DNA from: Anaerolinea thermophila
GTDB lineage: Bacteria > Chloroflexota > Anaerolineae > Anaerolineales > Villigracilaceae
Length of the DNA stretch: 35,678 nucleotides
Reading direction: 5' to 3'
NCBI GenBank assembly: GCA_020722345.1
Contig: DYKZ01000008.1
Span: forward strand, 1-35,678
Of the stretch, positions 20,371 to 32,990 are shown piece after piece. Position 1 is the stretch's first letter, and each line of letters opens with the position of its first letter. The notes beneath the pieces are model-generated. The model worked only from the letters and a program-made list of their open reading frames with translations. It did not search any database and was not told where the DNA came from. A program made the translations under genes and the position numbers.

Positions 20371-22305
20371 TTATTCGTTGGCCGCCACGATGATCTTGTC
20401 GGCTTCTGAGAATGTGATCATTTCAAATTTCTTCGGGTTGGTGTGCACGCCGTAGGATTTGGCCGCCTCCCCGGCCTCGGCCACCAGCCGGTAGCCGATG
20501 GCTGTCTCACCCCGACGGCGCGCCGCCTCGACCACCGTGTAGAAGTTGACCGGCCTGCCAGCCTCCACGTAATCGCCGACCGGTTTCAGGTAGATCTCGG
20601 AACCTTCGGGGTCGAAGATGTCGGTGAAGACGGCATACAGGTTAGCGTTTTCGGAGAGTTGCGCCATCATCAGGCTGATGAGGTGGTCGCTGACGATGAA
20701 ATCGTCCACACGCGTCACCTCGGCCAGTTCGCGGTTGCGCAGGTCGAGCATCTCGCTGACGATGGAGAACGGCGTCTCGTCGCGTTCGGCGATGTCGCGC
20801 AGGTGCAGAAGGGTCACCAGCGTCCTGGCGTCTGCTTCCTGGACCTCGAGGCCGGCGTAACTCAACACAATGACATGATCGAAGTCCGCGGCTTTGATGC
20901 TCTCCAGAAGTTCCCGGCTGGCGGTATCGCCTTCCTGGAAAATCACTTTCTGGTTGGTGAGTTTACTACACTCCCGCCGGATGATTTTTTCTGCGCCGGC
21001 TGTCTCCGATGAGACAGCCGTGTTGGCTACTACCAGGACCTGCGACCCTGCCGGGACGTAGTTGTCGAGTTCGCGGATGATTACCGCCGCGTTGCGGTTC
21101 CATCCCAGGATGAGGCATTTCTCCGGTTTTGGTGTGCTGACCTTGCCTGCCGGATGGATGGCAGACTCGTCAACAGGAACGGAAGCAAATCCGGAAACTA
21201 CAAAGGTATCGTCATCAGCAGTCAAGCCGAAGAGTTCGTCCTCCGCTTCGATGACGGTATCCATGGGCGGGTTCAGGCTTGCAATGTTGTTCCCCTTCTT
21301 GATCCCCATCACCGTGGACGTTTCGTAAGCCATCAGGGCCTCGCCGTAGGTCTTCCCCGCCAGGGATGGCTCCCTGGTGAAGTAGATCTCGTCCCCGCCG
21401 AAGTTCAGGAGTTCGGTGTAGATCACCGAGAGGCCGCTCTGGCGCGAGGTCTGGGCGGTGACACGCGCCACCAGGTTCCCGACCAGCGCTGCCTGCACCT
21501 TGTCGCGCTTTCCGATCATCTCGACCACATCCATGTTCTTCTGTTCGCGGATCTGGGTCACGATGTGGTAGGGTTGTTCGCGACGGTTTGGGTTATTGGT
21601 AATCGCCAGCACAGTTTTGATAACCGCCGTATCAGGGTTATCGCCTTCTGGAGGCAGGATGATGATGGATTTGGCCTCGTGCGGGCTGACGATTTCCAGG
21701 TCGGTGGGGTCCATCGGCGAACCGGAGCGGCAAATGACCCGCGTGCTGCCCGCCGTTTCGACGCGGGCGCGGATCTCCTCCTCCATTGCCACCTTGTCTT
21801 TGTCTGCCAGGATGACGATGCGGGCATTCTTCTGGTTCTCGTTGGCCTGCATCAGTTCCGACAGGATGGTAAAGACCTGCGGCGACCAGCCTAGGATAAG
21901 TGTGTGCCCGCTTTCGAGCACCTGCGAACGGCCTTTGCGCAGTTCCTCCAGTTTGCCTTCCACGCCGGTGGTCAGCACGCCGATGAGTGTGCTGACGATG
22001 AAGATGCCGCCCAGGGTGACGCCCAGCATGATCAGCCGGAATCCCCAACCGGCATCCCCGCCCATCGTCCCGGCGTCCAGGGTGCGCATCAGGCTCCACC
22101 AGACTGCCTCGATGAAGTGGGGCGAATCGCTGCCTTCGGGCGCGAACAGGCGCCCCCCGATGGCAAGAATCAGCCCTGCCGCCAAGATGAGAAGCAGGGA
22201 AACCACGCCCAGCCCTCCAATCAGGGCGATGGTTCCCCCAGACATGAAGTTATCGAAAAAATATTGGAAACGTTGTTTGAAGGTCGGTTTTTTTGTCACA
22301 CACAT
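20371..22305 (-). CDS. CASTOR/POLLUX-like ion channel with RCK-type cytoplasmic domains
   Basis: 644 residues from ATG 22305, fixed by GGAGGA four bases upstream; an in-frame ATG at 22359 lies in the promoter. Two membrane helices (about 24-52 and 88-112) flank a pore segment with DAGTMGGDAG at 77-86, in the place of the plant CASTOR/POLLUX filter. Two large Rossmann-like units follow (HTLILGWSPQVFTILSEL near 134, KCLILGWNRNAAVIIREL near 415), each with a nucleotide- or ion-binding turn. Plant relatives pass calcium or potassium across the nuclear envelope; bacterial homologues are thought to act in the plasma membrane and are poorly studied. It is a single-gene unit with its own -10 box and terminator. 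Confidence 0.88.
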   Translation of the reverse strand: MCVTKKPTFKQRFQYFFDNFMSGGTIALIGGLGVVSLLLILAAGLILAIGGRLFAPEGSDSPHFIEAVWWSLMRTLDAGTMGGDAGWGFRLIMLGVTLGGIFIVSTLIGVLTTGVEGKLEELRKGRSQVLESGHTLILGWSPQVFTILSELMQANENQKNARIVILADKDKVAMEEEIRARVETAGSTRVICRSGSPMDPTDLEIVSPHEAKSIIILPPEGDNPDTAVIKTVLAITNNPNRREQPYHIVTQIREQKNMDVVEMIGKRDKVQAALVGNLVARVTAQTSRQSGLSVIYTELLNFGGDEIYFTREPSLAGKTYGEALMAYETSTVMGIKKGNNIASLNPPMDTVIEAEDELFGLTADDDTFVVSGFASVPVDESAIHPAGKVSTPKPEKCLILGWNRNAAVIIRELDNYVPAGSQVLVVANTAVSSETAGAEKIIRRECSKLTNQKVIFQEGDTASRELLESIKAADFDHVIVLSYAGLEVQEADARTLVTLLHLRDIAERDETPFSIVSEMLDLRNRELAEVTRVDDFIVSDHLISLMMAQLSENANLYAVFTDIFDPEGSEIYLKPVGDYVEAGRPVNFYTVVEAARRRGETAIGYRLVAEAGEAAKSYGVHTNPKKFEMITFSEADKIIVAANE

Positions 22306-22330
22306 ATTGTCCTCCGGATGCAGATGATGT

Positions 22331-22336
22331 ATTATA
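22331..22336 (-). promoter_or_regulatory. Likely -10 box of the channel gene
   Basis: TATAAT on the minus strand, 25 bases before ATG 22305. The expected -35 place holds no good match; a TTGTCA is present but only eight bases away. On the plus strand the same spot gives TTGACA at 22344-22349, which could serve the UPF0173 gene but lacks a clear -10. Confidence 0.4.
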
Positions 22337-22415
22337 GATTCGTTTGACAATCCTGCCAACAGGCTCGATTTTCTCGTTTTCCTGCCTGCATGGAATCTTT
22401 CGAAAAGGAGACTCT

Positions 22416-23967: not shown

Positions 23968-26742
23968 TTATTTCTTCACGCTAAAGCGGACCTCCGCTGC
24001 CCCCACGTTTCCCGCCCGGTCGGTTGCCTCGACCCGCAGTACGTGCTGCCCGGTCTTGGCCTGCCACAGCGCCCCAAACGGCGCGGCAGAGAGGCTGGCG
24101 ATCTTCTCCCCGTCCACGTAAACAGTCACCGCGCTCAGGAAAGCCTCCTGCACCTGCGCCTGGAGGGCAACCTGCGGCTCGCCGCCCAGGCTGACCTCCT
24201 GCCCGGCCTGCGGGTACAGGATGGCGACCTGCGGCGGGGTATTGTCCAGGGTCACCTGCACCAGGGATTCATCCACGCGGTCGCCGGCGCGGACCACCAG
24301 CAGGCGCAGCACGTACAACCCGTCCAGACCGGCCGTGTCCCAACTGGCGAGCAGGCCGCCGGTCACGGGGGCGGCGGAATCTTCGCCAATTTGCAGCCAG
24401 GTCGCCGGGTTCAGCCCGGCCCCGTATTCCAGCCGGTAGGAGACGAAATCCGCGCCCGCCGCCGTGCCGCGTACCTCCAGCACGCCGCGCCCGTCCGCGA
24501 ACATGGCCGGGGAGGTGATATGCGCCCATTCAAGGATGTTTTCCGGCTGGTAGGTGTCGTAGATGGATGGCGGCTGCTCGATCCCGGCTGTCTCGGCCCA
24601 GGCCTGCGCCTCCGGCGGCAGCACCATATACACCTGGCTCCTGATCAGTTCGGGCGGCGTGAAAACCGTCCCCAGCAGGCCGGTCTCGATGTTAATCTCG
24701 AACGCCCGGTAGAGCGTGTCGGCCTGCGCCGGCTGGCGGCCTTCCAGAAATACCTCCTCCACCACGTTCGGGCAGATCGAAGTCGGCAGCAGACCGGACG
24801 GGTCGCAGACTTTGACGCTGACGATGCCGGAGGGCATTTGCCAGCCTGCAGATGGCAGGGTGTGGACGGCTGTCTGCATCAGCGCCTGCCACAGCCCCGC
24901 CGCTGCGTCCCCGGACCCTGAGCCTGCTCCCGTCAAATAGACCGCCGTCACCCGCTGGGGCGTGTATCCCGTCACCCAGGCCGCCGCGCCGTCGAGCGTG
25001 GAGGAGACTTTGACGGCGGCCGGGCGGCCAATCTCCAGCAGACCGCTCCCCTCCGGCCGCTCGCTCAGCACGTGGTTCATCAGGTAAGCCAACTGCGGGC
25101 TGACCACCAGCCGCGTCTCCGGCATCGTCCAGTCCAGCCAGAGACTTCCATCCGCGCCGCTGACTTGCAAAACGGCGGACGGTTCCAGCGCGGACGAGTC
25201 CGCTTTCCTCCCTGCCTGGATACCCTCGACAGCGAAAGCTCCGTAGGCGGAAATTAGGTTGAAAGGAGAAACCTCGAATTCTTCTTCCAGCAGGCTGGCG
25301 GCGGGCAACTCCAAACCGAAAGACGCGGCCGTCTGGCGGATGCTTTGCGTCCCCAACTGCGCCGCCAGTGTGCGCGCCGGGACGAGGGAATCGTTGACCA
25401 GCGCCAGGCGCAGGCGCACCGGTCCGTGATAGACCTGCCCCAGATTGGGCGCCTCGGCGGGCAGGTCCCAGGCCAGGCTGGCGGGGTTGAGGCCTCTGGC
25501 AAAGCCGGTCAGATAGAGGAACGGGGTGATGGAGGTCCCGGCCGGGTGGGAGGAGAGGTCGCCTGCCGCGGCCAGGATTTGCCCGGTGGCCGGGTCGAGG
25601 ATGAGCACCCCGCCGCTTGTTGCCGAGGAGAGCGCAGTCACTGCGGGTAACAAAGCGGCGGTCTCGCAAGCAGAACCGTCGCTGGCGGGCAAGACAGCCG
25701 GGCCGCCTGCCAGTTGTGAAATCCGGCTGCGCAGGGCGCAGTCGGCCTGGAGTTGCAGAGCGTAGTCCAGGCTGGTGAGGACGACCGCTCCGCCGCGTTC
25801 GACGCGCCCTGCGCCGAGGGCCGAATCCAGTTGGCGCAGGAGGTAGTCCACGAACTGCGGCGAGACGCCCGCGTCGGCAATGAGGAGGTCGCTCTCCGGC
25901 CGCTCGAGGAGGGTGGGCGGACTGTTTACGGCTTCGTTGGCCTGGGCGGGCGTGATCCAGCCGAGCGAGAGCAGGGAGCGCAGCGCCTCCACCCAATTGG
26001 TCTCGGCGGCCTGCGGCGCGTCGAACGGGTTGAGGGCCGGGGCTTCCCCTACAACGGCCAGCATGGCGGCTTCGCTAAGAGTCAGGTCGGCGGCGGATTT
26101 GCCGAAATAAAGGCGCGCCGCCGCTTCGGCCCCGTAGGCGTTGTGGCCGTAGTCGGCGCTGTTGAGAACCCATTCCAGCACTTGCTGGGGGCCGTAGCGG
26201 GCAGTGATTTGGGCAGCCAGCAACCGCTCGCGGATGGCACGCCGGGCGCCGGGCGGCTCGTCTGCCAGCAGGAATTGATAGACCAGTTCCTGCGCCAGGG
26301 TGGGGTGAGAGGCCGGGTCCTGCCAGCCTTCCAGCACGTAGCCGGGAGAATCCCGGAAATCCGGCTGGGTGAGGGCCAGCGTGGCTTTCACCAGCCAGGG
26401 AGAGAACTCTTCGTAGCGCAGGAATGTGCGCGGCGAATCTGTCGGGGCGAGGACGGCCAACAGGTACTGGCCGGTGCGGTCGTAGAGGCGCGTTGGCCGG
26501 AGCAGGAGGCCGGTGGAGGCGTCCAGTTGCGCCTCGAGTGCTTCGACCGGGGGCAGGCCGCGGGTCAGGGAAGCGTAGGCGAAGGCCGCGGCCAGCACCA
26601 GCGTCACGGCCGCGGCGCTGACGATGAATCCGAAACCGAAGGCCAGCCGCTGGGTCCGTTTTTCGGCGCTGCGGCGCGTCCTCTCCTGCCGCTTGCGGCG
26701 TTGTCGGATGATGGAGATGGGGGAGGCGGAGCGGGGACTCAC
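23968..26742 (-). CDS. Class A penicillin-binding-protein-like pseudo-enzyme with C-terminal Ig-like domains
   Basis: 924 residues. A basic cytoplasmic start and one membrane helix (about 32-58) are followed by a glycosyltransferase-51 domain (about 85-240), a transpeptidase-like domain (about 315-610), and two Ig-like domains near the C-terminus (about 720-924). The fold is plain from DYGHNAYGAEAAARLYFGKS and AAWVTGYTPQRVTAVYL. But the catalytic motifs are gone. The usual LEDxxF is LTQPDF (Thr125, Gln126), SxxKPF is TSITPF (Thr403, Thr406), SxN is SLV (452-454), and KTG is KVS (578-580). The second glycosyltransferase Glu (Glu172) remains. So it should neither polymerise nor cross-link glycan, yet may still bind wall or partners. 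The GTG start overlaps the vapC stop by four bases. Confidence 0.85.
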   Translation of the reverse strand: MSPRSASPISIIRQRRKRQERTRRSAEKRTQRLAFGFGFIVSAAAVTLVLAAAFAYASLTRGLPPVEALEAQLDASTGLLLRPTRLYDRTGQYLLAVLAPTDSPRTFLRYEEFSPWLVKATLALTQPDFRDSPGYVLEGWQDPASHPTLAQELVYQFLLADEPPGARRAIRERLLAAQITARYGPQQVLEWVLNSADYGHNAYGAEAAARLYFGKSAADLTLSEAAMLAVVGEAPALNPFDAPQAAETNWVEALRSLLSLGWITPAQANEAVNSPPTLLERPESDLLIADAGVSPQFVDYLLRQLDSALGAGRVERGGAVVLTSLDYALQLQADCALRSRISQLAGGPAVLPASDGSACETAALLPAVTALSSATSGGVLILDPATGQILAAAGDLSSHPAGTSITPFLYLTGFARGLNPASLAWDLPAEAPNLGQVYHGPVRLRLALVNDSLVPARTLAAQLGTQSIRQTAASFGLELPAASLLEEEFEVSPFNLISAYGAFAVEGIQAGRKADSSALEPSAVLQVSGADGSLWLDWTMPETRLVVSPQLAYLMNHVLSERPEGSGLLEIGRPAAVKVSSTLDGAAAWVTGYTPQRVTAVYLTGAGSGSGDAAAGLWQALMQTAVHTLPSAGWQMPSGIVSVKVCDPSGLLPTSICPNVVEEVFLEGRQPAQADTLYRAFEINIETGLLGTVFTPPELIRSQVYMVLPPEAQAWAETAGIEQPPSIYDTYQPENILEWAHITSPAMFADGRGVLEVRGTAAGADFVSYRLEYGAGLNPATWLQIGEDSAAPVTGGLLASWDTAGLDGLYVLRLLVVRAGDRVDESLVQVTLDNTPPQVAILYPQAGQEVSLGGEPQVALQAQVQEAFLSAVTVYVDGEKIASLSAAPFGALWQAKTGQHVLRVEATDRAGNVGAAEVRFSVKK

Positions 26743-27152
26743 TTTGTGATGCGGGTCAGGCGCCCGCTGTCATCTGCCTGGAGGAGAGCCAGTTCGGGCA
26801 TGGGGAAGTGGCGGGCGTTGGTGGTGACGAGCGTCAGTTCATGGTGAATGGCCGTCGCGGCGATGATGGCATCCGCTTCACTGAGTGTGACCCCCTGCGC
26901 TCGCCACGAGTGAATCAGTTCTCCTGCCAAGTCAGCAATTCGGGCAGTCATTGGGATCGTTTGAAGGGAATCAAGCATGTGGAAGGTGGATACTTTTTCA
27001 TGGTCACGCATCCCGCGCACAATTTCGAGGCGCGTGATGGCAGAGATGTATAATCTGCCCTCCCCTGATAAAGCATCCATCAGATCATCATATCCTTCTG
27101 TTTCGCGGAAATGCCTGATCAGGATATTTGTGTCGAGCAGGTGATCACTCAT
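26739..27152 (-). CDS. vapC: VapC-type PIN-domain ribonuclease toxin
   Basis: 137 residues. PIN toxins cut RNA with magnesium held by acidic residues. Here these are Asp7 (LLDTN), Glu43 (SAITRLEIVRG) and Asp94 (LSEADAIIAATA), with TTNARHF at 110-116 in the final position. The start overlaps the end of the antitoxin gene by eight bases, the usual coupling in vapBC. The stop overlaps the GTG start of the PBP-like gene, so one message may carry all three. Confidence 0.92.
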   Translation of the reverse strand: MSDHLLDTNILIRHFRETEGYDDLMDALSGEGRLYISAITRLEIVRGMRDHEKVSTFHMLDSLQTIPMTARIADLAGELIHSWRAQGVTLSEADAIIAATAIHHELTLVTTNARHFPMPELALLQADDSGRLTRITK

Positions 27153-27429
27153 CCTTGCCCCACTCTTTAGAGAAGTCGCGGGTGAATCCTTTTCGACCTT
27201 CCTCGATCCAACGGTCTATATCTTCCGGTGTGGCTAATTCGGGATGATCTTCGAGTTTCCATGCGCCGTAGGAATTCTTAATGGCTTCTTTGACTTTCCT
27301 GCGGCGCAGTTCGCGCGCCAGCACCTCCTCCACGAAGCGCGTCCGCTCGCGGGCGGGGATGAGGCGGCGCAGTTCGTCGGCCACCGGCTTGGTGAGATAA
27401 AGATTCAGGCGTTCGCGGATCTCAGGCAT
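27145..27429 (-). CDS. vapB: VapB-type antitoxin
   Basis: 94 residues from ATG 27429, with AAGGA eight bases upstream; a GTG at 27447 would lie inside the operator repeat. The N-terminus (EIRERLNLYLTKPVADELRR) has the strand-helix look of a ribbon-helix-helix DNA-binding domain, followed by a charged helix (FVEEVLARELRRRKVKEAI) and a Trp-rich acidic tail that should wrap the toxin. It lies directly upstream of vapC and should repress its own promoter. The exact antitoxin subfamily is not certain. Confidence 0.8.
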   Translation of the reverse strand: MPEIRERLNLYLTKPVADELRRLIPARERTRFVEEVLARELRRRKVKEAIKNSYGAWKLEDHPELATPEDIDRWIEEGRKGFTRDFSKEWGKDE

Positions 27430-27440
27430 GGCGCAATTCC

Positions 27441-27470
27441 TTTGCACTATAAGTTTGCACTGTGATTATA
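27441..27470 (-). promoter_or_regulatory. vapBC promoter and likely antitoxin operator
   Basis: TATAAT on the minus strand (27470-27465) includes the stop codon of the oxidoreductase gene upstream. Two direct copies of AGTGCAAA (plus-strand TTTGCACT at 27441-27448 and 27454-27461) follow with a 13-base period, around the expected transcription start, as suits a ribbon-helix-helix repressor. No good -35 is visible. Confidence 0.5.
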
Positions 27471-29607
27471 CATCAATCCGGGTGTTCCTGCGCAGCGACT
27501 CCATCGCTGCGAACGTGGCCTTCGTCACGCCGATCAACTGCTCGTACGGGATGGGCGGCGCGCCGCTCTCATGGATGGCTCTGGCGAATGCCTCCCACTC
27601 GCCGCGCCAGCCTTTGTCCTGCGCCTTCCTGACCGTTGTCCGGCGTCCGTCGCGCACCATCTCCAGCGAGCGGAAATCGTCCAGTACGGCGATTCGTCCG
27701 CCGCAAAATATTTCGAGGCGCTCCTTGGGGAAGGATTTGTCGCCGTTAGCGAGATAGTCCACCACGCCGACCGAACCATCGGGGAAGGTGAAGGTCATCG
27801 AGACGTTGTCCTGCCGGTATTTGCCGCCGTCGGGCAGGGCGTGGGCGCTCACGCTGACCGGCGCGGCCCCTGCCAGGAAGGTCAGGAAATCCACGAAATG
27901 GCAGCCTTCGCCGATGATCCGCCCGCCGCCCTGGGCCGGGTCGTGAACCCAGTGGTTAGAGGGGATATATCCGGCATTGACACGATAGTGCATGTAGAGC
28001 GGTTCGTTGCGAGTCCTGAGTTGTGAGGAAAGGGCTTGGGCGAGGGGGGCAAATCTCCGGTTAAAACCCACAGTAAGAAGGGAGACGGAAGAAGTCAGAA
28101 GTTGATTGCTGACTGCTGACAGTTGGTTGCCATCCAGAGCCAACGGTTTTTCAACGAACACATGTTTCCCGGTCCGCAAGGCTTTCACTACAAGTTCAGC
28201 GTGAAGGTCGTGGCGCGTGAGAATGGCGACGGTGTTGATGTCCGGGTCGTTCAGGATTTCATCGTCGCTGGAGGCGGCGTAGGCAAAACCGAATTTTTTC
28301 GCCGCGTGTTGGGCGTGGAGTCCGCCTGCCGAGGCAATACCGACCAGTTCGATCCCGTCCACTTTTTGGATGGCCGGGAGCAGGGTGGCATTGGCGAAGT
28401 TGCCCGCGCCCAAAACGCCCAGTTTGACCGCGGACAATGGACGGTGAACGCCGGAAAATCGAATCTGATTATCTGTTTCCTGATCACCTAATTCTTTGTA
28501 AGTCAGCACAACTCCGAGAAATGGTTCTTTCTTCTTCCCGGTGATGACTTCGTATGCTTCGGCGGCGCGCTCGATGGGGAAGCGATGCGTGACGAGCGGC
28601 TGGACCCTGAGCCTGTCCTCCGCCATCAAGCCGACTATGGCCTCGAAGTTGCGTCCCTCCGTCCAGCGGACATAGCCGAGGGGGTAGTCGCGCCCGTTCT
28701 CCTCGTAGGCGGAATCGTAACGTCCCGGCCCATAGGAGCGGGAGTTGACGAAAGAGAGTTCCTTCTCGTAGTAGATTTTGCGCGGCAGCGAGAGTCCCAC
28801 CGCGCCGACCGCGACGATCCGCGCCCGGTCACGGGCGATGACCGCCGCCAGTTCGACCGGGTCGTTGGAGGAAGTATCGGCGCAGATAAGCACCACGTCG
28901 AAGCCGCGGTTGGCGGTGAATGCCTGGGCCGAGTCGGCGGCCTGGTCACGGAGGCAGGCTCGAAGTCCGAGAGACGAGGCGAGGGCGACGCGCTGGGGGT
29001 TGGTATCCACGCCCAAGACGCGGCAGCCGGCTGCGGCGGCAATCTGTCCGGCCAGCAATCCCAGCAGTCCCATGCCGATGACTGCCACAGTCTCGCCGAT
29101 CTGCGGTACAGCGAGACGGAAGCCGTGCAGGGCGATCGCGCCGAGGGTGGTGAAGGCGGCGGACTCGAAGTCCACGTTGTCGGGCAAGGGGGTAAGCAGG
29201 GCGCGGGGGATGACGTTGTACTCGGCGTGGACGGCGTATCCGCCCCCGGCGCAGGCCACGCGCTGACCGACCTTGAAGCCGTCCATCCCCTCGCCCAGCG
29301 CGACGATGGTCCCGGCGGAGGAATAGCCGAGTGCCATCGGCTGATCGAGGCGGCTGAAGGCGGCTTGCAGGGTGGGGATAACCCCCTCGCGTTTCATTTT
29401 GTCCACCACCTGGCGGACGAGGTCGGGGCGGGAGCGCGCCTTGCCGATCAGCGACTTTTCGGCAAACTCTACGACCATGCGTTCGGTGCCCGCCGAGACG
29501 AGCGAGGCGGCCACGCGGACGAGCGCCTGCCCGGCGCGCGGGCTGGGCGCGGGGACTTCTTCCACGCCGGTCTTGCCGGTTTTCATGTTTTGGAGGAGTT
29601 GTTTCAT
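27466..29607 (-). CDS. Fused zinc-type alcohol dehydrogenase / Gfo-Idh-MocA oxidoreductase
   Basis: 713 residues. The first half (1-350) is a medium-chain dehydrogenase: QALVRVAASLVSAGTER, GYSSAGTIVALG, VGQRVACAGGGYAVHAEY, and the Rossmann loop VAVIGMGLLGLLAGQ. The second half (about 385-713) is a Gfo/Idh/MocA unit with LGVLGAGNFANATLLPAI, LTRHDLHAELVVKAL, HVFVEKPLALD and EGCHFVDFLTFL. Such bi-domain enzymes often sit in surface-sugar clusters, but here no sugar gene is adjacent. Three stretches look like spacer DNA read in frame: 28431-28500 between the domains, 28092-28131 after EKPLALD, and 28005-28032 after QAL. The stop codon is part of the vapBC -10 box. The start at 29607 has only a weak ribosome site. 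Confidence 0.88.
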   Translation of the reverse strand: MKQLLQNMKTGKTGVEEVPAPSPRAGQALVRVAASLVSAGTERMVVEFAEKSLIGKARSRPDLVRQVVDKMKREGVIPTLQAAFSRLDQPMALGYSSAGTIVALGEGMDGFKVGQRVACAGGGYAVHAEYNVIPRALLTPLPDNVDFESAAFTTLGAIALHGFRLAVPQIGETVAVIGMGLLGLLAGQIAAAAGCRVLGVDTNPQRVALASSLGLRACLRDQAADSAQAFTANRGFDVVLICADTSSNDPVELAAVIARDRARIVAVGAVGLSLPRKIYYEKELSFVNSRSYGPGRYDSAYEENGRDYPLGYVRWTEGRNFEAIVGLMAEDRLRVQPLVTHRFPIERAAEAYEVITGKKKEPFLGVVLTYKELGDQETDNQIRFSGVHRPLSAVKLGVLGAGNFANATLLPAIQKVDGIELVGIASAGGLHAQHAAKKFGFAYAASSDDEILNDPDINTVAILTRHDLHAELVVKALRTGKHVFVEKPLALDGNQLSAVSNQLLTSSVSLLTVGFNRRFAPLAQALSSQLRTRNEPLYMHYRVNAGYIPSNHWVHDPAQGGGRIIGEGCHFVDFLTFLAGAAPVSVSAHALPDGGKYRQDNVSMTFTFPDGSVGVVDYLANGDKSFPKERLEIFCGGRIAVLDDFRSLEMVRDGRRTTVRKAQDKGWRGEWEAFARAIHESGAPPIPYEQLIGVTKATFAAMESLRRNTRIDV

Positions 29608-29748
29608 GGGTCAAACGGTTCTCTGCGGCTTGATTTTCGGTATTCGATATGGGTGAGGGGGGCTTCCTGACAATCTCGAACGGTGACATTCGTATTTCGG
29701 CATTGAGTATACCGCAAGAAAGGGGGCGCGAAATTGCCTCGAAACGGG

Positions 29749-29754
29749 TAAAAT
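29749..29754 (+). promoter_or_regulatory. Possible -10 element for the BTAD regulator gene
   Basis: TAAAAT lies eight bases before ATG 29763, with no ribosome site in between, so the message may be leaderless. The -35 place has no clear match. Confidence 0.3.
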
Positions 29755-29762
29755 ATTTGCAG

Positions 29763-32700
29763 ATGAGTGTCACGAATGGATTGCCGATCAGCCACACCAA
29801 GATCACCGTCCCGGGCCGCCGGCCGGAGATCTTGAGCCGCGCCCGCCTGTTGGAAAAGTTGGAGGAATTGCTCGACAAGCGGCTCGTGCTGGTCACTGCG
29901 CCGGCAGGCTATGGCAAGACCTCCCTGCTGATTGACCTGGCGCAAAATACCCACATGCCGGTCTGCTGGCTGTCGCTAGACGAACTCGACCGCGATCCGC
30001 AGCGTTTCCTGCTCTACTTTGCCGCCTCGATTGCTGAACAGTTCCCCCGCTTCGGGAGCCGCTCCACCGCCGCTCTGGCCGACCTGACCGACATCCGGGC
30101 GGCGCTCGAAAACGTTGTCATCACGTTCGCCAACGAAATCTACGACCAGGTTGACGAGCATTTTGTCCTGGCGCTCGATGACTATCAATATGTGGACATA
30201 GTGGCCGATATTCGAAACTTCGTCAGCCGCTTTGTGCAGCACGCTCCGGAGAACTGCCACATCCTCCTCGCCTCCCGCCGCCTGCCTGCCCTGCCAGACA
30301 TGACGGCCCTGGTGGCCCGCCAGCAAGTGGGCGGCTTCGACCTGACCGAACTGGCTTTCCGCCCGGAGGAGATCCGGGCGCTCTTCGAGCAGAACTACGG
30401 CGCATCCCTGAGCGAAGAAGAGACCATGCACCTGCTGCGCCGCACCGAGGGATGGATCACGGGCCTGCACCTGAGCCAGTTGAGCGATTCCCGCTCCATC
30501 CCGGACCTGACGCAGGCCGCCCGCGCCGTTGGCATTGACCTGTCTGATTACTTCGAACAGCAGGTGCTCAACCAGCAGACCGCTGAGATGCGTTCTTTCC
30601 TGCTCCAGACCTCCCTGCTGGAGGAGTTCGACGCCGCTCTGTGCGACGCCGTCCTCGGCGTTGGAGACTGGCAGTCCATGATGCGGAACGCGCGGCAGAA
30701 CAACCTGTTTGTCCTACCGGTCGGGCAGCGGGGGGATTGGCTCCGCTATCACTCCCTCTTCCAGGAATTCCTGCGCAAGCGCATCCAGCAGGAAAGCCCT
30801 GCCACGGTGCAGGCCATTCTGCTGCGCCTGGCGGAGGTCAGCGAGGAGAATGGCGATTGGGAAAAGGCCCATTTCGCCATCAAGCAGACCGGCGACCAGA
30901 ACGCCCTGACTGCTTTTGTGGAACGCGCTGGATCTCCTCTGATTCAAAGCGACCGCATCCTTACACTTGGTTCCTGGCTGGAGGAATTGCCTCCCCCGGC
31001 CATTCAGGAAAACCCCTCGCTGCTGGCCTTGAACAGTTTTGTCGCGCTCGTCAGGGGGCAGGTCAAATACGGCTTCGAGCAAAATGCACAAGCCGAAGCC
31101 ATGTTCCGCGCTCAGGGCAACCTGCTTGGTTTGGCCTTTACACTGGTGCAGCGCTCCTGGGCGAACCGTCTGCTGGGAGATTACCAGTCTGCGGTTGCGG
31201 CTGCCGAGGAAGCCATCCAACTGACGACCGGGCAGCCAGATCAGGAGTTCCGCTTGGCAGAAGCCTACCGGATGAAAGGCTTGGCCCTTTTTCGGCTGGG
31301 GCAGGTAACCCTCGCCTCCGAATGCCTGGAACGATCCTTGAAGATGTTTGCGCTTTTGCATCGGGACAAAGATGTTCCGCTCCTGCAAATGGAACTCGGC
31401 ATGACGCACCGGGTTCTCGGTGATATTGCCTCTGCCCGTTTGAGTTATGAAAAAGCGTTGGAAATCTGGCAGAAGCAGGGCAACCTTACGGCGCAGACCA
31501 CTCTGCTGAACAACCTGGGCGTCCTGCACCATTTCCGCGGAGAATACGAAAAGGCTGTCCAATCCTTCGAACAAGGTCTGGACTGCGCCCGCCGCAGCGG
31601 CTACCTGCGCTCTGAAGCCCTTCTCCTTGCCAGTCTGGGCGATGTGTATGCCGACATCAGCGACCTCGAGGCTGCCGGGCAGACCTACCAGCGCGCCCAA
31701 GAGATTGCTATCCAGACCAACGATCATTTCCTGCTCAACTACACCCGCATAGCCTTGGCGGGGATCGCACGCCGCGGCCGCGACCACGACCGCGCCCGTC
31801 TGCTGCTGGAAGACGCCGAGAGCGCCGTCCGGCAATCCGATTCACGTTACGAGACCGGGTTGTACATGCTCGAATTGGGCTGCCTGCATTTGTCAGAAGG
31901 CAGCCCCGGCCGCGCCGTCCCGGACCTGCTGGCTGCGCTGGAAAACTTCGAGCAGGGCGGCCTGCAAACGGAAGCAGGGCGGGCCAATCTCTGGCTGGCC
32001 GCCGTCCTGGCGCAGAACAAGGGCGCGGAGGCCGCCCGCCCAGCCATCGAGGCCGCCTTCCGTTTCGCCGGGGGCGGCGACTCGCCCGCGCCGTTTTTGC
32101 CGGCCGGCTCGCAAGTCCGCGCCTGGCTCGCTCCTCTGACAGAAGACGAAAAGATTGGGCCGCGCCTGCGTTTCTTCCTCAGCCAGGTGGACCAGTTCCA
32201 GAAGCAACTCCCCTCCCTGCGTAAGCGCCTGCGCCGCATTACCCGCCTGGCGCCGGAATCCGCGCCCGCCCTGACCATCCGCGCCTTTGGCAAATCGCAG
32301 GTTCGGGTGAAGGGGCAGTTGGTCACAAATGCCCAGTGGCGGACGCGGGCGGTGAAAGAATTGTTCTTCTTCCTGCTCCAGGCTCCCAGGCCGTTGACCA
32401 AGGAGCAGATCGGCCTCGAACTCTGGCCGGAAAACGATGCCGAGCAGTTGAGGAAGCATTTCAAGAACGAACTCTATCGCCTGCGCCGGGCGGTGGGGCA
32501 GGATGTAATTCTGTTCGACGGCGCCACCTACCGCTTCAACCACGACCTGGATATCGAGTACGATGTCGAAGTGTTCGAAAGCAGCCTGAAACGCGCCCGC
32601 GCCGCGCAGGACGCAGAGGCGAAACTGCGCGCCTATCAGGAGGCGGCGGCGGCTGTGCGCGGCCTGTACCTGGAGGATATCGGTTCCTCCTGGGTGATGG

Positions 32701-32990
32701 CAGACCAGGAACGGTTCCGGCAGCGCTATCTCGAAGCCCTGCTCGCCCAGGCTGAACTGCTTCTTGGCCGCCGCGATGCAGAAGAGGCGCTGAAGGTGTG
32801 CCAGTACATCCTGGTTCTGGATAAAACCTATGAAGGCGCCTACCGGCTGATGATGAGCATCCATGCGGCGCGCGGCGACCGTCCGGCTGTCACCCGTCAG
32901 TATCAGGCCTGCCGTGATGCTCTGACGCTGGAACTCGGCGTCCCGCCGTCTGTGGAAACCGAAGCGCTTTACCGCAAGTTGACCGCCTGA
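29763..32990 (+). CDS. Large STAND ATPase-TPR-BTAD transcriptional regulator (MalT/SARP-like)
   Basis: 1075 residues from ATG 29763; the frame is open for a further 38 codons upstream, but these read as promoter and not as protein. A MalT-like start (ISHTKITVPGRRPEILSRARLLEKLEE) leads to a P-loop ATPase with Walker A APAGYGKTS (46-54) and an acidic Walker B near FVLALDDYQYVD. Tetratricopeptide repeats fill about 400-790 (LNNLGVLHHFRGEYEKAVQS, LLASLGDVYADISDLEAA). A winged-helix DNA-binding domain (about 835-910, LTIRAFGKSQVRVKGQ, then LTKEQIGLELWP) precedes a BTAD domain (about 920-1075). Such proteins sense a ligand through the TPR part and activate genes when ATP-bound. The ligand is unknown; the peptide gene next door is a candidate. 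A terminator follows. Confidence 0.92.
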   Translation: MSVTNGLPISHTKITVPGRRPEILSRARLLEKLEELLDKRLVLVTAPAGYGKTSLLIDLAQNTHMPVCWLSLDELDRDPQRFLLYFAASIAEQFPRFGSRSTAALADLTDIRAALENVVITFANEIYDQVDEHFVLALDDYQYVDIVADIRNFVSRFVQHAPENCHILLASRRLPALPDMTALVARQQVGGFDLTELAFRPEEIRALFEQNYGASLSEEETMHLLRRTEGWITGLHLSQLSDSRSIPDLTQAARAVGIDLSDYFEQQVLNQQTAEMRSFLLQTSLLEEFDAALCDAVLGVGDWQSMMRNARQNNLFVLPVGQRGDWLRYHSLFQEFLRKRIQQESPATVQAILLRLAEVSEENGDWEKAHFAIKQTGDQNALTAFVERAGSPLIQSDRILTLGSWLEELPPPAIQENPSLLALNSFVALVRGQVKYGFEQNAQAEAMFRAQGNLLGLAFTLVQRSWANRLLGDYQSAVAAAEEAIQLTTGQPDQEFRLAEAYRMKGLALFRLGQVTLASECLERSLKMFALLHRDKDVPLLQMELGMTHRVLGDIASARLSYEKALEIWQKQGNLTAQTTLLNNLGVLHHFRGEYEKAVQSFEQGLDCARRSGYLRSEALLLASLGDVYADISDLEAAGQTYQRAQEIAIQTNDHFLLNYTRIALAGIARRGRDHDRARLLLEDAESAVRQSDSRYETGLYMLELGCLHLSEGSPGRAVPDLLAALENFEQGGLQTEAGRANLWLAAVLAQNKGAEAARPAIEAAFRFAGGGDSPAPFLPAGSQVRAWLAPLTEDEKIGPRLRFFLSQVDQFQKQLPSLRKRLRRITRLAPESAPALTIRAFGKSQVRVKGQLVTNAQWRTRAVKELFFFLLQAPRPLTKEQIGLELWPENDAEQLRKHFKNELYRLRRAVGQDVILFDGATYRFNHDLDIEYDVEVFESSLKRARAAQDAEAKLRAYQEAAAAVRGLYLEDIGSSWVMADQERFRQRYLEALLAQAELLLGRRDAEEALKVCQYILVLDKTYEGAYRLMMSIHAARGDRPAVTRQYQACRDALTLELGVPPSVETEALYRKLTA

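Follow-up and report, generated by a model that had tools for sequence, protein, structure and literature searches.

In this study, we analysed a window of 35,678 nucleotides from Anaerolinea thermophila (contig DYKZ01000008.1 of a draft genome of 3.07 Mb in 398 contigs), which harbours a class A penicillin-binding protein (PBP) that, judged by its sequence, is left with neither of its catalytic sites, as both the glycosyltransferase (GT) and the transpeptidase (TP) centre are erased. Comparison with its relatives indicates that this dead state derives from active class A PBPs, and that the same orthologue lost catalysis at least two times, in the order of the window and in another order, and was retained each time. 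The relatives named here are metagenome genomes of the Anaerolineales/Anaerolineae (Chloroflexota), and most of the sequences compared come from metagenome assemblies.

The protein, hereafter pseudo-aPBP, comprises 924 aa and is read from a GTG start at position 26742 to position 23968 on the minus strand (23968..26742; ORF, Pfam, orthologue search and AlphaFold model). The frame is intact over all 924 codons, as the initial annotation had reported without giving the strand. All features described in the following lie on the minus strand. The membrane anchor that had been proposed is recovered as a hydrophobic stretch preceded by a basic one (aa 33–59, 26566..26646), with a conserved RxxRR and Y56, and in the model it lies within an extended helix at the N-terminus (10–60). 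It is followed by a pseudo-glycosyltransferase domain (aa 115–275, 25918..26400), which is supported by PDB matches and by Pfam Transgly (GT51) with 73.6 bits at a cut-off of 27, the match being partial and covering model positions 68–174 only, and by a pseudo-transpeptidase domain (aa 376–635, 24838..25617), which retains the fold and scores below threshold with the Transpeptidase profile (13 bits, cut-off 22.1). Further downstream are a post-TP region (aa 636–742, 24517..24837), a first Ig/FNIII-like domain defined by structure models and fold matches (aa 743–833, 24244..24516) and a second one (aa 834–922, 23977..24243), where structure matches are accompanied by Pfam hits to BiPBP_C (29.0 bits, cut-off 26.8) and Big_7.

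The best NCBIfam model for pseudo-aPBP is PBP1A (TIGR02074), with 188.3 bits under a curated cut-off of 508.75, while active orthologues reach 480–558 bits and the paralogue of the same genome 486 bits. With the bifunctional class A PBPs of the PBP1A family, including the active Anaerolineae orthologues and the paralogue on contig C77, it shares the domain order, the fold and the N-terminal anchor; C-terminal Ig domains are likewise found in active orthologues, and the cysteine motif of the post-TP region also occurs in PBP1A-type relatives. It differs from this family in the loss of all GT and TP motifs, in its score (188 against a 509-bit cut-off) and in a constraint displaced towards the C-terminal part. 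PBP1C/PbpC resembles it in carrying a C-terminal BiPBP_C/Big_7, but pseudo-aPBP reaches only 102.9 bits with the PBP1C model TIGR02073 (curated cut-off 494.2) and has lost catalysis.

The register of the catalytic motifs was set against class A PBPs of the PDB, the active paralogue of the same genome (L036) and active orthologues. In the GT domain, the former EDxxFxxHxG motif reads LTQPDFRDSPG (aa 124–134, 26341..26373), with the catalytic Glu replaced by T125 and the adjacent Asp by Q126, and a stretch behind this motif is deleted. GASTITQQ is changed to SHPTLAQE (PTLAQE in place of STITQQ) and the RK motif to R168-A169. Among the hallmarks of a working glycosyltransferase (catalytic Glu, EDxxFxxHxG, GxSTITQQ, RKxxE), the second Glu, E172, is hence the only survivor. 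In the TP domain, SxxK corresponds to T403-S404-I405-T406 (25525..25536), SxN to D451-S452-L453 (25384..25392) and KTG to K578-V579-S580 (25003..25011), where the Lys is kept and Thr and Gly are gone; SxxK, SxN and KTG thus read TSIT, DSL and KVS. These alignments agree with the initial annotation in equating LEDxxF with LTQPDF, SxxK with T-S-I-T and KTG with KVS. The loss of SxN proposed there also holds, but its register, SLV, lies one residue off, and the position of the nucleophile is 403 instead of the suggested Ser404. Pseudo-aPBP is consequently a class A PBP by fold, homology and descent, and not a class A PBP enzyme by its motifs; it would be unable to bind beta-lactams covalently or to polymerise lipid II.

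That the overall fold remains, as had been assumed, is supported by an AlphaFold2 model computed from the window protein and 79 relatives (mean pLDDT 91.7, pTM 0.77), in which the GT-linker-TP fold is predicted to be intact. The best PDB matches of the model are class A PBPs, with PBP2 of Staphylococcus aureus (3dwk_A) superimposing over 522 residues at 3.2 A (Z 35.8). The former nucleophile is located at the start of helix 402–415, the former SxN between helices 444–449 and 453–463 and the former KTG on strand 576–581, which we take to be the secondary-structure places of these motifs in working PBPs. Modelled alone (pLDDT 90.7), the C-terminal part shows two Ig/FNIII-like domains with best matches to 9kvu (Z 14.8) and 3pdd (Z 14.4); these domains dominated the search, and no convincing fold match was obtained in it for the post-TP region, aa 636–742. 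The two Ig-like domains had been described as added. Their presence is clear, but they are inherited: since active orthologues carry both, a gain together with the catalytic loss was rejected. In about half of the same-family dead copies, the second domain has been lost.

The losses are fixed across the family. An orthologue was detected in at least 133 of 150 same-family genomes (E < 1e-100), and any match in 149 of 150, the weaker matches including fragments from broken assemblies. When close homologues were collected, the same substitutions were found throughout 95 distinct same-family orthologues: SxxK, K169 and S451 occur in none of them, the GT Glu in three and KTG in four. The residues H146, P147, A150, A169, R185 and D451 are new and fixed in the family, at positions where active orthologues have G, S, T, K, K and S, respectively, in 82–100%; the window protein itself has P at 185. 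It has also lost one residue more than most relatives (D126 to Q). As about 95 distinct orthologues share the pattern, a chance loss in one genome or a sequencing error can be excluded. That the protein is still an enzyme, its catalytic residues having moved elsewhere or its reaction having changed, might be suspected from the Glu at position 125 in three relatives and the KTG in four. Such continued catalysis is nevertheless very unlikely, given the absence of SxxK from all 95 sequences, the lack of a conserved replacement Lys or Glu at the sites and the fact that the motifs of both domains have all changed together.

Decay of the gene, or an artefact of assembly, would be another explanation for the missing motifs, and the additional loss of D126 in the window copy could be read in this direction. 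However, the frame is intact, the gene persists in more than 130 independent genomes (orthologue presence in at least 133 of 150), and the median pairwise dN/dS of the whole gene is 0.10 in 13 close pairs, with similarly low values for the single regions in close pairs (dead GT 0.105, dead TP 0.112, post-TP 0.050). A decaying pseudogene was therefore rejected; this explanation, too, is very unlikely and retains practically no probability. The view of the initial annotation that the loss is not decay is hence sustained by fixation in the whole family, a dN/dS of about 0.1, active ancestors and an intact paralogue in the genome. With lost catalytic residues, a retained fold and purifying selection, pseudo-aPBP has the properties of a pseudoenzyme.

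Full-length orthologues were found throughout the class and the phylum. The dead state is derived, because orthologues in most other sampled families and classes are intact bifunctional enzymes; within the order of the window, too, five families have active orthologues (L147, L148, L154, L155/L181 and L159/L180). In the tree, the order's dead copies group as a single clade inside the active orthologues (support 99), and masking of the motif columns under a mixture model again gave one change for this clade (support 80). Sequence and tree together place the loss of both sites in the ancestor of most of the order. Some lineages are seemingly without a dead copy, namely one genus of family f9 (g34) and two of family f13 (g48 and g68); in these genera, it was apparently lost and only active class A PBPs are left, which makes them natural knock-outs.

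With wider sampling, dead copies were also found in other orders, i.e., in f58 (3 of 3 genomes), in f33 (24 of 24 sampled genomes) and in one genus of f46. The f33 substitutions differ from those of the window's family, with ED kept, SxxK PGPTLQPF-like, SxN AGLLP-like and KTG VNG-like. An earlier tree, in which sequences from beyond the order were sparse, had given a single origin. In masked alignments, f33 and f58 adjoin the active orthologues L224, L301, L226 and L302, and a forced single origin of all dead copies of the class was rejected (lnL difference 55.6, p-AU 0.0047; AU test under LG+G4, with the constrained group named after the tree was seen). For these reasons, the orthologue died at least twice. 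Dead copies of the f46 genus join the dead clade of the order via a long branch, where a third origin and long-branch attraction are indistinguishable.

In the dead copies, constraint has shifted away from the TP domain and towards the post-TP/Ig region. Active orthologues conserve their TP domain better than their post-TP region (mean identity 0.59 and 0.49), whereas the reverse holds for dead copies of the own family (0.50 and 0.61) and of the rest of the order (0.42 and 0.56). In f33, dead copies show equal values (0.51 and 0.51), compared to 0.59 and 0.47 for the near active enzymes. The post-TP region, with its dN/dS of 0.05, is the most conserved part of the protein and contains the motif CDPSGLLPTxxCPN with two invariant cysteines.

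Beyond the fold, the selection, the derived and recurrent loss and the intact paralogue, for which the data are given here, we infer a role in the cell envelope. The initial annotation had named a structural, wall-binding or regulatory function, which stands as the best remaining class of explanation. We favour, with moderate confidence, a true pseudoenzyme that is anchored in the membrane and acts on peptidoglycan synthesis as a non-catalytic scaffold or regulator. In this model, pseudo-aPBP would be held by its membrane anchor, with the folded body exposed on the outer side, and would recruit or tune the real peptidoglycan synthases, i.e., the intact class A paralogue, a SEDS-class B complex or both, via contacts of the post-TP/Ig1 face and of the remodelled pseudo-active domains. 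As this orthologue lost catalysis at least two times independently and was retained, the non-catalytic job was probably present already in the active ancestor, where an active paralogue would have made the chemistry redundant. More generally, there is about an even chance that a job independent of catalysis, as scaffold or activator of a peptidoglycan synthase, is ancestral to this type of class A PBP, and that this is the part kept by selection, leading to the repeated origin of pseudoenzymes in the Anaerolineae. Against a scaffold or regulator speak the neighbouring genes, which show no PBP partner, and the seeming absence of the gene from some lineages of the order, owing to which it is not universally needed.

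The high conservation of the post-TP/Ig1 part could also suit a wall-binding or envelope-structural protein, in which the dead domains only support a stalk anchored in the membrane, and binding to peptidoglycan, polysaccharide or other surface proteins falls to the Ig/FNIII domains, without any regulation of synthesis; the C-terminal domains indeed resemble cellulosomal CbhA modules and adhesins most closely. However, the second Ig domain is gone in about half of the family, active enzymes carry Ig domains equally, and the full fold and a dN/dS of 0.10–0.11 in the GT and TP domains, like that of the whole protein, go beyond the needs of a spacer, which renders this option unlikely. Conserved clefts of pseudoenzymes frequently bind ligands, and several residues lining the former sites are kept in the 95 same-family orthologues, including Ser or Thr at position 403 (94/95, Ser in 71/95), D451 (91/95), K578 (91/95), G580 (82/95) and E172 (94/95). 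Since Ser at 403 and the second GT Glu are so widely retained, ligand binding is conceivable, and the remodelled clefts might bind lipid II, muropeptide or stem peptide without chemistry and report the state of the wall. Such a sensor is nonetheless doubtful, as the donor-site residues S147, Q152, K155, K169 and R142 of active orthologues are replaced in the dead copies, a stretch behind motif 1 is deleted and the cytoplasmic side consists of a short basic tail with no signalling domain. A scaffold or regulator of active synthases is the reading we prefer.

Enzymes that could be served by such a scaffold are available. An active paralogue, the presence of which had been left to be checked, is encoded in the same genome (C77, L036; 1003 aa) with all motifs intact (EDKDF, GASTITQQ, SSIK, SLN and KTGTS), as are three PBPs of class B type that retain SxxK and KTG, and PF00912 matches were obtained in 120 of 121 genomes of the order, usually two or three in each. 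The genome also encodes a fusion in which a SEDS protein (FTSW_RODA_SPOVE) is joined to a class B PBP (G000:C191, L037/L248, 1228–3690), the TP motifs of which are lost too, with PPGGALEPF in place of SxxK. Its relatives, fused or adjacent, occur throughout the order and SxxK was present in none of those checked; they appear to represent a second dead PBP family.

The gene neighbourhood did not serve as a pointer to a partner, since it contains housekeeping genes only: those that recur are folP/folK, pfkA, rnz, ftsK and the gene of an uncharacterised zinc-ribbon protein, with no PBP partner among them. An uncharacterised protein of about 440 aa with a TPR-like start and zinc-ribbon motifs is located near the dead PBP in 33 of 80 loci (among L059–L137), mostly 3–235 bases upstream, and 24 of these 80 have a 140-aa protein without a known function. 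Directly upstream in the window lies a likely VapBC-type pair (26739–27447, minus strand), a 100-aa protein followed by a PIN-domain protein, where relatives often carry folP or a zinc-ribbon gene; the PIN stop overlaps the start codon of pseudo-aPBP (GTGA), and translational coupling may occur in this genome. Other genes of the window encode a 713-aa protein that unites a zinc-type alcohol dehydrogenase with a Gfo/Idh/MocA oxidoreductase (27466–29607, minus strand), a Castor/Pollux-like ion channel with RCK/TrkA-N domains (20371–22359, minus strand) and a large transcriptional activator of the MalT/BTAD type that contains TPR repeats (29649–32990, plus strand).

Precedents for PBPs acting without their own chemistry exist. 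A catalytically inactive mutant of Bacillus subtilis PBP2B still supports division in a structural role, as part of a complex in which another PBP supplies the TP chemistry (PMC5656894), and PBP3 of Clostridioides difficile promotes septum synthesis without its catalytic Ser, in complex with the class A PBP1 (PMC12539705). Both are, however, class B proteins, PBP2B being naturally active and the SxxK of PBP3 naturally intact, whereas pseudo-aPBP is a class A PBP and naturally dead. Degenerate LytM regulators of the DipM type likewise combine a wall-enzyme fold and lost catalysis with the regulation of active enzymes, although theirs is a hydrolase fold and that of pseudo-aPBP a synthase fold (PMC10336132). 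In the open literature searched on pseudoenzyme PBPs and on PBPs of the Anaerolineae, no family of class A PBPs that is dead by nature was found to be described.

Non-catalytic roles of PBPs have so far been deduced mainly from engineered active-site mutants; here, the separation is natural, has occurred at least two times and extends to whole families. As a practical consequence, homology-based counts of class A PBPs and predictions of beta-lactam targets would overcount enzymes in the Chloroflexota. If our reading is true, nature has provided, in the dead proteins, separation-of-function mutants for what class A PBPs do apart from catalysis, and a comparison of the residues that dead and active copies retain would map the surfaces of this function in a directly testable system.
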